From IMG/VR virus record IMGVR_UViG_3300045115_000060, positions 1 through 23,821 of that record: a stretch of DNA of 23,821 nt; one strand, written 5' to 3'. The DNA is from a virus. A program made the position numbers and the translations under genes. The notes under the pieces are model-generated. The model was not told the DNA's origin. It searched no databases and was given only the letters and a program-made list of their open reading frames with translations. This document shows, in pieces, positions 866 to 23,812 of the stretch (its first letter is position 1; every line of letters begins with the position of its first letter).

Positions 866-2134
866 TTATCGGACTCTTAGCAGATCTGAGTATCTCGTCG
901 TATATCGAGGTGACAGCATTTCTCGCTTCATTTGCCACTGTTGCTGAATGCCCTGCCCTGCAAAGTAGAGCGTTCCTCTGCCGTCTCTGGCATTGAGTTG
1001 ATCCAGAACCTCCATCAGTTTATCACTACCGGGCCGCGGCGCGTTTTCATCGAACAAGTTAAGCTGGGCTACCCCCTGACTGAAGAAATCACCCAGCATA
1101 ATGCCGGCTTTCTGGTACCTGTGGCCATCCTTCCAGATTTTGTCCAGGCACTTTACCGCGGCGTTAATGATGTCGCGTGAATCCTGAGTGGGGGTAAGAA
1201 GCTTCATGGACGCACTGTTATCATAATACGGCTCGTTAAGCGCAAAGGGAGAGGTTTTCACGAACGCAGAGATAAAGCGGCAGTATTGATGCTCACCCCG
1301 AAGTTTTTCAGCACCACGGGCGGCATAGCTGCAGATGGCCTGCCTCATTTGTTCGTAATCAGTGACGCGTTCGCCGAATGACCGGCTGCAGACGATTTCC
1401 TGCTTTGCCGGCGCAAACTCCTCCAGCTCTAAACATGGCTCGCCTCGCAACTCCCGGACGGTTCGCTCCAGCACGACATTAAAGTGTTTGCGAATAATCC
1501 AGGTGCTTTGCTCAGAGAGATCAAGTGCCGTTTTGATGCCCATCGCGTTTAGCTTTTTGCTGATGCGCCTACCTACGCCCCACACGTCCTCTACCGGCAC
1601 GATAGCCATTAACCGCCGCTGACGGTCGACGTTAGACAGGTCCACAACGCCGCCCGTCTGCCGCTGCCATTTTTTTGCTGCGTGGTTAGCGAGTTTAGCG
1701 AGTGTTTTTGTCTGGGCAATGCCAACACCAACTGTAAGGTGCGTACGCTTCAGCACGTTAGCGCGGATCTCTTTGCCGAACTCGGTCAGATCCCGGCAGT
1801 TTCGCACCCCAGTAAGATCACAAAAGGCCTCGTCAATGCTGTAAATTTCGACGCGAGGACTCATTTCCTCAAGCGTGGTCATCACTCGGTTCGACATATC
1901 TGCGTAGAGCTCGTAATTGCTGCTGAAGCAAACAACCCCAGCGCGCCGGAAAAGCTCCTTTTGCTTGAAGAATGGCTCCCCCATAGTGATTCCGACCGCT
2001 TTTGCTTCTGCGCTGCGTGCGATTACACAGCCATCGTTATTTGAGAGAACGACAACAGGCCGCCATCTTAGGTCCGGCCTGAATACAGTCTCGCATGATG
2101 CGTAGAACGAATTCACATCACAGAGGGCAAACAT
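866..2134 (-). CDS. umuC: DNA polymerase V catalytic subunit UmuC
   Basis: A full-length Y-family translesion polymerase of 422 residues, the usual size. The metal-binding acidic residues are in place: Asp6 in [14 protein letters not shown], and Asp101-Glu102 in YSIDEAF. The fingers segment [10 protein letters not shown] and the C-terminal [13 protein letters not shown] and [18 protein letters not shown] blocks are typical of UmuC. With UmuD' it forms polymerase V, which copies past DNA lesions at the price of mutations. The ATG lies 2 bases after the umuD stop, so the two are translated from one LexA-controlled mRNA. The gene looks intact. Whether this copy belongs to the prophage or to the host flank is not decided by the sequence. 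Confidence 0.97.
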
Positions 2135-2136
2135 AC

Positions 2137-2556
2137 TCAGCTCGCCGATTTAACGATAAAAGTCACGACACCGAACACATCAAGTGTGTCCTCGGTGCCA
2201 ACAATAATCGGCGAATAAGCGCTGTTCATCGGTAGGAGCTGCACTGTGGGACGTAGCTGCAGTCGTTTTACTGTGAATTCCCCTTCCACCGCAGCGATGA
2301 CAATGTCACCATGCTCAGCAGTGCGGGAACTATCCACCACCAGCAGATCGCCGTCGCTGATCCCGGCCTCAATCATCGAGTCGCCTGCAGCCTTGACGAA
2401 ATATGTCGAGCTGGGATGAGCAACAAGAAGCTCATTGAGATCAATGCGTTGTTCGACATAATCAGCTGCCGGGCTGGGGAAACCACACTGGACTAAGTCG
2501 CTGAAAAGCGGAAGCGCGATAATTTCTCGCAGTTCTGCAGGTCTGATAAATTCCAT
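2137..2556 (-). CDS. umuD: SOS protein UmuD, self-cleaving polymerase V subunit
   Basis: A LexA/UmuD family serine protease of 139 residues. The self-cleavage site Cys24-Gly25 (QCGFPSPA), the nucleophile Ser60 (GDSM) and the general base Lys97 (FTVKRL) sit at the same numbers as in E. coli UmuD. RecA filaments stimulate cleavage to UmuD', which joins UmuC as polymerase V. The ATG at 2556 has GAGG about 8 bases upstream on the minus strand. A LexA box lies 15 bases before the start. It is the first gene of the umuDC operon, and all functional residues are present. Confidence 0.97.
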
Positions 2557-2852: not shown

Positions 2853-2865
2853 CGAAGTGGCTAGT
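2848..2865. repeat. short inverted repeat before the acyltransferase gene
   Basis: ACTAGC and GCTAGT form a 6-bp stem with a 6-base loop (GAAGTG). There is no T-tract after it, so it is not a standard terminator. It lies about 30 bases upstream of the chosen acyltransferase start and could influence its leader. Confidence 0.3.
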
Positions 2866-2896
2866 GATAATACTAGAGATAGGTGCAAATTTTAGG

Positions 2897-3469
2897 ATGA
2901 ATAAAAAAGAGTTAAAACGCCACTTGCATGAATGTTTACAAGCGGAAGTAATGAAAAGTAAAAAACCATTTACTTGGACTCGCGCTGTTCATAAAGCTTT
3001 TAAATGTCCTGAAAGACGTTTTAACTTTTGGTGGCGAATTTCATCTTATCTTTATAAAGCTAATATTTGTAAAAACTTCGCACGCAAAATCAATAGAAGG
3101 TTGACCATTAAATACGGTTGCGAAATTCAACTCGGAGCCTCAATCGGCCCAGGATTGATTATCAGTCACTTTAATGGAATTGTTATTAACGGGAGCAGTT
3201 GTATAGGCTCTAATTTTAGAATTAGACAAAACTCCACAATTGGAATCGGTGGTGGGAAAATGCCTGACTCCGGAAAGCCAAGCATTTTGATAGGTGACAA
3301 CGTAAGTGTGGGGGCTGGTAGTTGTATTATTGCAAACTCTATAGTGATAGGTAGCAATGTTGACATCGGCGCGATGAGCTTTATCAACAAAGACATACCG
3401 AGTAATTGTATCGTTTACACCAAAAAAACAAATGAAATCCATTTCAAAAAACATGATTTATCAGCCTGA
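2897..3469 (+). CDS. hexapeptide-repeat acyltransferase, serine acetyltransferase-like
   Basis: A left-handed beta-helix acetyltransferase of 190 residues from the ATG at 2897. A basic helical N-terminus (residues 1-70) is followed by hexapeptide turns. These include GPGLIISHFNGIVI, with the expected catalytic His at about 91, then IGSNFRIRQNSTIG, ILIGDNVSVGAGS and IGSNVDIGA. This layout matches CysE-like and polysaccharide O-acetyltransferases of the WcaB type, which move acetyl from acetyl-CoA to a hydroxyl. The gene is much more AT-rich than the late genes and points against them, converging with the fibre-assembly gene 16 bases away. I infer a lysogenic-conversion cargo gene, perhaps modifying surface polysaccharide. 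A GTG at 2864 in the same frame is an alternative start; neither start has an ideal ribosome site. Confidence 0.8.
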   Translation: MNKKELKRHLHECLQAEVMKSKKPFTWTRAVHKAFKCPERRFNFWWRISSYLYKANICKNFARKINRRLTIKYGCEIQLGASIGPGLIISHFNGIVINGSSCIGSNFRIRQNSTIGIGGGKMPDSGKPSILIGDNVSVGAGSCIIANSIVIGSNVDIGAMSFINKDIPSNCIVYTKKTNEIHFKKHDLSA

Positions 3470-22965: not shown

Positions 22966-23256
22966 ATGAAAAAGTTAATCTTGGTAGCACTGGTTGCTAC
23001 GGCTGTTTCTGGCTGCGCTCAACAATCGTTTTCAGTAAACAAAGGCATAACGACTACGCCACAGCAAGTTACGACACATCATTTCTTCGTTAGCGGGATT
23101 GGTCAATCCAAGCAAATTGATGCAGCTCAGGTTTGCGGTGGTGCTGATAAAGTTGTTCGTACTGAAGTTCAACAGACTTTTGTGAATGGGCTGCTAGGAT
23201 TTGTCACCTTCGGCATCTATACCCCTCGTGAAGCACGCGTCTATTGCGCGAAGTAA
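22966..23256 (+). CDS. bor: Bor lipoprotein (lambda Bor / Iss family)
   Basis: A protein of 96 residues, the family's length. A lipoprotein signal (MKKLILVALVATAVSGC) ends in a lipobox with Cys17 as the lipidated residue. The mature part carries the Bor signature THHFFVSGIGQ, AAQVCGGADKVV and QQTFVNGLLGFVTFGIYTP. Bor is expressed from the prophage, goes to the outer membrane and, in E. coli, raises serum (complement) resistance. The gene is read against the late genes and lies between the lysis side and cos, as in lambda. AAGG lies about 7 bases before the ATG. It is followed by its own terminator. It is an intact lysogenic-conversion gene. Confidence 0.96.
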   Translation: MKKLILVALVATAVSGCAQQSFSVNKGITTTPQQVTTHHFFVSGIGQSKQIDAAQVCGGADKVVRTEVQQTFVNGLLGFVTFGIYTPREARVYCAK

Positions 23257-23288: not shown

Positions 23289-23311
23289 AGCCCTCTAACG
23301 GGGGCTTTTTT
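23289..23311 (+). terminator. terminator of bor
   Basis: AGCCC and GGGCT form the stem, extendable by a T-G and a C-G pair, followed by six T. It lies 33 bases after the bor stop codon. Confidence 0.85.
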
Positions 23312-23750
23312 ACATCTGGTTGGTAAAACAATTATCAAACCCACCAGCAACTGGGCTTTGTAAAGGCTGCCACTATCCGAAGTGGCCACGCTCATGCCCT
23401 TGAGGTGCTGTCGCTTCATCGCCGCTTATAACCGGTGCGCATTTGGGGTTTGCGCTTCTTTACCGGAGCATGTTCCCTTATTTACCCTCACATCGGTCTG
23501 CTATACGTACTCACCATTACGCGACTCGGGGCAGCATCATGACTGCTGCATTGCCTTTAGGCTGCGGTCAACCCGTTTTACTGCTTCATTGTCTCTAGTC
23601 ACCAATTCACTGTATAAATCTAAGGAAATTCTTCATTCCCCACGCTTACGCTTGTTATTATCTGCCTGGCTGCCAGGCTACACATGACTCTGATGCGGAG
23701 AATGCCAACTCCGGGGAACATCAATAAAAAGAGCAACGAAACTGAGACTT
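23312..23750. other. hairpin-rich non-coding region, possible structured RNA
   Basis: No gene is convincing in this 440-base stretch. It holds at least six clean inverted repeats: 23344-23354, 23369-23386 (GCCACT/AGTGGC), a nested pair at 23432-23466 (CCGGT/ACCGG enclosing GCGCA/TGCGC), 23531-23549 (GCAGCA/TGCTGC), 23664-23678 (GCCTGGC/GCCAGGC) and 23696-23713 (CGGAG/CTCCG). A rightward terminator follows at 23755. A 101-codon frame on the plus strand starts at a GTG without a ribosome site and has an unlikely composition; minus-strand frames are short. It could be a structured RNA or a decayed lysis-region gene. I do not recognise it. Confidence 0.35.
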
Positions 23751-23754
23751 CTGT

Positions 23755-23780
23755 AGCCCTCCCAGAGAGGGCTTTTTTTT
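23755..23780 (+). terminator. rightward intrinsic terminator
   Basis: AGCCCTC and GAGGGCT form a perfect 7-bp stem with a 5-base loop, followed by eight T. It would end any rightward transcript of the structured region, or read-through from bor. Confidence 0.88.
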
Positions 23781-23782
23781 AC

Positions 23783-23812
23783 AAAAAAAAGCCAGCTCGG
23801 ACAGAACTGGCT
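23783..23812 (-). terminator. leftward intrinsic terminator, back to back with the previous one
   Basis: AGCCAG and CTGGCT form a stem that can be extended past one mismatch by a TC/GA pair, followed on the minus strand by eight T (complement of A at 23783-23790). It would stop leftward transcription entering from the right edge unless that transcription is antiterminated. Confidence 0.8.

Follow-up and report, generated by a model that had tools for sequence, protein, structure and literature searches.

What occupies the seemingly hairpin-rich and gene-free 440 bases beside bor in this phage genome, and on which strand does it act? The window, by which we mean the whole 23.8-kb virus record analyzed here, carries a lambda-type portal, a GpA-family terminase, a DUF1441-type terminase small subunit, a contractile-tail sheath and bor, with the phage structural genes on the minus strand. 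At the tail side of the phage the window also holds a UmuC-type polymerase with DUF4113 (866-2556, minus strand), adjoined by a short UmuD-like ORF. An ORF at 2864-3469 (plus strand), which runs counter to the tail genes, is a possible acyltransferase by a sub-threshold hexapeptide-repeat match.

An earlier note, made from this single sequence, took the region for one self-contained transcription unit for a structured RNA, starting right after the bor terminator and ending in back-to-back opposed terminators. Its borders were read correctly: the bor terminator is found where expected, and at the far end a rightward terminator (23755-23773 plus a T-tract) meets a leftward one (23812-23790). Within these borders, however, lie two conserved non-coding elements, here called A and B, which are on opposite strands and have different sets of homologues (Table 1). 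The structured RNA beside the lysis and terminase genes, which has no Rfam match, is borne out by covarying pairs among homologues, whereas the single self-contained unit is not, as the covarying RNA runs on the minus strand, in operon sense, with relatives that lie inside predicted operon transcripts and often have a terminator just upstream and little room for a promoter. Two outcomes that the note named as refuting its view, a conserved reading frame and an absence of covarying pairs, were not observed.

Table 1. Features of the region and its left flank, with coordinates in the window.
Feature	Coordinates	Strand	Evidence or remark
bor	22966-23256	+	
bor terminator	23289-23306	+	precedes the region
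Hairpin with poor T-tract 3' of element A, possibly a weak terminator	23337-23358	-	
Element A, structured RNA (about 220 nt) and proposed leader	23366-23591	-	homologues, alignment, pair counts, G-U versus A-C
3'-terminal hairpin of element A	23369-23386	-	pair counts
Hairpin with nearly invariant CTCAAGGGCATGAGCG	23388-23414	-	alignment, pair counts
Long hairpin with internal loop	23432-23466	-	most conserved domain of element A
H-type pseudoknot (23505-23509 with 23493-23497; 23500-23502 with 23467-23469)	23467-23509	-	
Long-range helix CCC/GAG (23528-23530 with 23487-23489)	23487-23530	-	closes the pseudoknot domain
Hairpin GCAGCA/TGCTGC	23531-23549	-	best covarying local helix; changes on both sides in 5 of 6 pairs
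Region of the first hairpin arm (CGG next to the mini-ORF, then CCGC)	23564-23576	-	pair counts; fixed distance from start codon
Mini-ORF ATG AAG CAG TAA at the 5' edge of element A	23578-23589	-	weak Shine-Dalgarno in the window copy
Element B, conserved non-coding, candidate small RNA	23608-23783	+	homologues, conservation
Rightward intrinsic terminator in which element B ends	23755-23780	+	stem and T-tract conserved
Leftward intrinsic terminator upstream of element A	23783-23812	-	

The view that the region holds no believable gene is upheld by comparison. In each of the 68 homologues compared, stops interrupt all three sense frames of element A. The antisense frame behind the 101-aa ORF stays open in just 17 of these 68, and no long frame is kept across the set; with no reading frame conserved, a protein-coding gene is rejected for element A. 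Hairpin richness above chance, on the other hand, is not borne out when single-sequence folding energies are compared with shuffles: the plus strand of the region folds no better than chance (z = -0.50), nor do the two strands of element A alone (z = +0.10 and -0.21) or element B alone (z = -0.82), and only the whole minus strand with both terminators included does better than its shuffles (z = -2.75). Conservation, covariation and a start-stop mini-ORF on the minus strand are features that a reading of one sequence could not see.

Similarity searches found relatives of element A in the phages mEp213, yong1, RothC, PSTCR7lys and vB_EcoS-733R5, on enterobacterial plasmids, and in 115 of 5426 complete E. 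coli genomes. Pattern scans and a profile search yielded about 150 homologues, reduced to 71 at 93% identity; the many pattern-scan matches outside Enterobacterales were due to chance and were removed by profile score. A covariance model of the 3' half (R1) added four distant members (L263-L266) with further compensatory changes, giving 75 non-redundant copies. The same 3'-half model matched 6 of 296 genomes sampled from the order to which the Ewingella genome belongs, and, the Ewingella reference genome itself excepted, none of 320 sampled across its class, so that by these samples element A looks restricted to Enterobacterales and their mobile elements. It lacks annotation in nearly all records seen. 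No Rfam family reaches its gathering score in element A (4227 families), a permissive search gave chance-level matches only, and no reverse transcriptase occurs among the annotated neighbors of the copies shown. Element A is apparently undescribed: we found no published account of it in a literature search that stopped short of a 2011 article by King in J Bacteriol, which reportedly deals with new antiterminator RNAs.

The fold of element A, drawn with 12 helices including the pseudoknot, was tested on 57 aligned sequences against shuffles and shifted pairing partners. Its 50 pairs are formed in 96.7% of the cells of this alignment, and changes on both sides occur in 24 pairs, against 8.3±1.9 in shuffled alignments and 6-9 with shifted partners, although kinship among the sequences inflates counts of this kind. 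G-U pairs outnumber A-C mismatches on the minus strand (157 versus 58), which sets the strand of the RNA. A tree-based covariation test had too wide a null and low power; two pairs passed, one of them an alignment artefact. Because of the breadth of the changes and the behavior of the slid controls, we consider this predicted fold very likely to be real. In the long-range helix that closes the pseudoknot domain, one pair alternates between C-G (29 sequences) and U-A (23 sequences), and in a divergent subtype (n = 11) both pseudoknot helices are 100% paired, the second being compensated at three of four pairs; the first of these helices is imperfect in the window copy. One distant member (L263:1501-1645) is a natural deletion that lacks the whole pseudoknot domain and keeps the mini-ORF and the 3' half, and should be useful for mapping function. 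Pairing with ribosomal RNA was also considered for the motif CTCAAGGGCA, which 60 of 68 sequences share. It can base-pair with positions 837-846 of the E. coli 16S, and the match outdid those of 40 shuffles. We treat this match as chance: the Ewingella 16S (L319) has lost the target while its element (L177) keeps the motif, and some members alter the motif in ways that preserve the hairpin, which also counts against it.

Directly 5' of the fold, 63 of 71 homologues have a start codon followed by at most two sense codons and a stop, whereas among all ATGs at the same loci only 13.6% run into a stop before a fourth sense codon. In 66 of 68 cases this mini-ORF has a Shine-Dalgarno-like match in front of it, frequently GGAGG or AGGAGG, and the start codon lies 13 or 14 nt from the first helix arm in 62 of 67 measured, approximately the distance to the leading edge of a ribosome sitting at a start codon. 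The coding content varies among homologues (ATG TGA; ATG AAG TAG; ATG CAC CAG TAA; ATG GTG CAC TAA), including the distant members (ATG TAA, ATG AAG TAA, ATG GTT TAG and ATG CAG AAG TAA), and with no more than two sense codons of varying sequence the peptide or its codons are unlikely to be the signal. Element A can be described, from its aligned homologues, as a conserved RNA with a predicted pseudoknot that starts with a putative site of ribosome initiation, from which the frame reaches a stop within 0-2 codons.

To place element A in its genomic settings, we classified the neighbors of the 75 copies by homology. Twenty-seven stand before lysis genes, with a Q gene upstream in 22 of them; 21, including the window copy, lie between lysis genes and terminase or before terminase; 17 occupy the early-left leader, with the repressor gene on one side and N-like genes on the other; three precede the pil genes of MPF_I-type plasmids; and seven remain without class. 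None of the Q, lysis, terminase or N genes identified around these copies is on the opposite strand; wherever neighbors can be identified, element A runs in the direction of the operon. (An earlier, coarse ORF survey had returned many opposite-strand ORFs, which were probably spurious, and is superseded by this classification.) Placement is mosaic, at the module borders of lambdoid genomes. The neighbors include Q-like and N-like antiterminators, and the Pectobacterium plasmid carries a gene for a NusG paralogue roughly 1 kb upstream of its copy.

Terminators accompany the element on both sides. At about 14 loci, the majority of them late leaders, element A is followed after 27-29 nt by a strong intrinsic terminator, and these terminators differ in sequence; early-left, terminase-side and plasmid copies mostly lack a strong terminator next to them. 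In many copies other terminators end about 20 nt before the mini-ORF. Of the 17 early-left leaders, 8 have a boxA upstream of the element; the copies of the other assigned classes have none. In three early-left leaders (L109, L204 and L041; also in L263 and L265) a TGCTCTTTA-type boxA follows a small hairpin upstream of element A, with the form GCTCTTTAACA in L041, L109 and L204; we take these motifs to match the boxA of ribosomal RNA. Some early-left loci also carry, between element A and the N-like gene, a long hairpin of the TTGGCTTTG...CAAAGCCAA type (L003:3880-3990, L263:1450-1500, L265:330-380), which resembles the RNase III site before lambda N. In two loci the N position is taken by small related ORFs without Pfam or PHROG match (L263:1161-1412 and L265:62-316, both minus strand), possibly unrecognized N-type antiterminators.

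How might such an element act? Its sense placement at the head of long operons, many of them controlled by N, Q or NusG-type factors, argues for a function in cis in transcript elongation, and the fixed distance of the mini-ORF suggests ribosome occupancy as an input. A switch is offered by the CCGC at 23564-23567, which can pair either with the nearby CGG arm, the part that a ribosome would cover, or with a distal GCGG (23422-23425). Taken together, placement, spacing and switch lead us to propose, tentatively and at somewhat less than even chances, that element A is a cis-acting leader RNA that enables RNA polymerase to read through long operons once licensed by a ribosome at the mini-ORF. 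The proposal also draws on the covarying, pseudoknotted fold, on the mini-ORF kept by the distant members, on the Q-like, N-like and NusG-type neighbors, on the strong terminators past the element at about 14 loci and on the boxA upstream of some early-left copies. A ribosome would load at the mini-ORF as the element leaves RNA polymerase and would cover the first helix arm; the freed CCGC would then close the domain by pairing with the distal GCGG, and the folded element would influence either the polymerase or how accessible the transcript is, allowing transcription to pass downstream intrinsic or Rho-dependent terminators. Element A would in this way resemble a processive antiterminator RNA, with the difference that it is licensed by translation. 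The wider claim, that it defines a class of translation-licensed processive antiterminators serving early and late operons of temperate phages as well as conjugative plasmids of Enterobacterales, is rather doubtful on the present comparisons.

Several observations sit uneasily with read-through. Many of the host operons already have N/nut or Q antitermination, and a second system could be redundant; the terminators directly upstream of some copies are unexplained by an antiterminator acting downstream. Both pairings of the CCGC are too conserved for covariation to decide between them, the distant member L266 breaks the pairing with the distal GCGG, and the window copy combines a weak Shine-Dalgarno with the imperfect pseudoknot helix.

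The same spacing of the mini-ORF from the first arm, the two competing partners of the CCGC and the terminators 27-29 nt downstream in late leaders could also belong to an attenuator, in which the leader gauges initiation at the mini-ORF and toggles the adjacent terminator with no processive antitermination. We regard this as unlikely, since a strong adjacent terminator is absent from most early-left, terminase-side and plasmid copies and the terminator stem has no visible overlap with an alternative helix. A role in mRNA protection or processing, with a ribosome parked at the mini-ORF and the compact fold blocking ribonucleases or setting a processed 5' end, is suggested by the strong Shine-Dalgarno and start-stop pair, by the position of the fold at the head of operons and by the long hairpins after some early-left copies; this we judge slightly less likely still, as the elaborate conserved pseudoknot would seem to exceed the needs of a protective hairpin and the element has no known processing site. 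In several late leaders element A lies between two intrinsic terminators, so that a separate RNA of some 240 nt might arise and act in trans as a small RNA, either freed from the operon mRNA or transcribed from a promoter of its own. Such a role is improbable given the strictly operon-sense placement, the terminator that ends shortly before the mini-ORF in many copies, the lack of a conserved promoter, and a start-stop site that would be unusual in a small RNA. Finally, the mosaic placement at module borders might indicate an element that works as DNA, such as a site of packaging, recombination or insertion, which is very improbable because the G-U excess, the mini-ORF with its Shine-Dalgarno, the strict operon orientation and the pseudoknot pairing would not be expected in one.

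Element B, the other occupant of the region, comes closer to the unit first described. Its relatives occur in phage PHB10, on two Enterobacter IncF plasmids near ardA and in about 50 viral contigs, and identity averages 84% over 25 sequences, up to the terminator with its conserved T-tract. There is little covariation. Element B is usually antisense to neighboring phage genes, and at several terminase-side loci it is divergent to element A. The IncF copies from the ardA region (L014:4001-4205 and L018:4001-4202) are about 90% alike and have both back-to-back terminators. It is possible, from this conservation, that element B is a self-contained small-RNA gene, and we regard it as a candidate RNA or DNA site.

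Should the read-through role of element A hold, it would constitute a third RNA-level route, besides nut and put, to the expression of long operons in enterobacterial mobile DNA, and one that recurs across unrelated operons of phages and conjugative plasmids. It also offers a testable case of a ribosome that makes at most a tripeptide communicating directly with a nascent RNA fold, and we know of no earlier RNA-level read-through system tied to a start-stop ribosome site.

Among known systems, very short ORFs at a fixed distance from an RNA structure are familiar from attenuator leaders of the tnaC, trpL and erm type, in which a short upstream ORF is in control; the ORF of element A differs in having only 0-2 sense codons of varying sequence. 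Phage ORFs of a couple of codons are likewise known from the lambda bar minigenes, which are as tiny but come without an attached structured RNA of this kind. Lambda nut and ribosomal boxA, acting with N and Nus factors, share the early-left leaders with element A and a boxA stands upstream of some copies; boxA lies outside the element and, in the late, terminase-side and plasmid copies examined, is absent. The put RNAs of HK022 (putL and putR) have the role proposed here for element A, and are similarly cis-acting structured RNAs in lambdoid operon leaders; they counter intrinsic and Rho-dependent termination in cis and need no phage protein to do so. HK022 was not among the similarity matches of element A, and its positions 24000-40751 gave no match to the 3'-half model. 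The put RNA is about 70 nt long, forms two consecutive stem-loops and has no mini-ORF described (PMC9378689), whereas element A is about 220 nt, pseudoknotted by prediction and begins with a start-stop ORF and, unlike put, occurs also in late operons and on plasmids.
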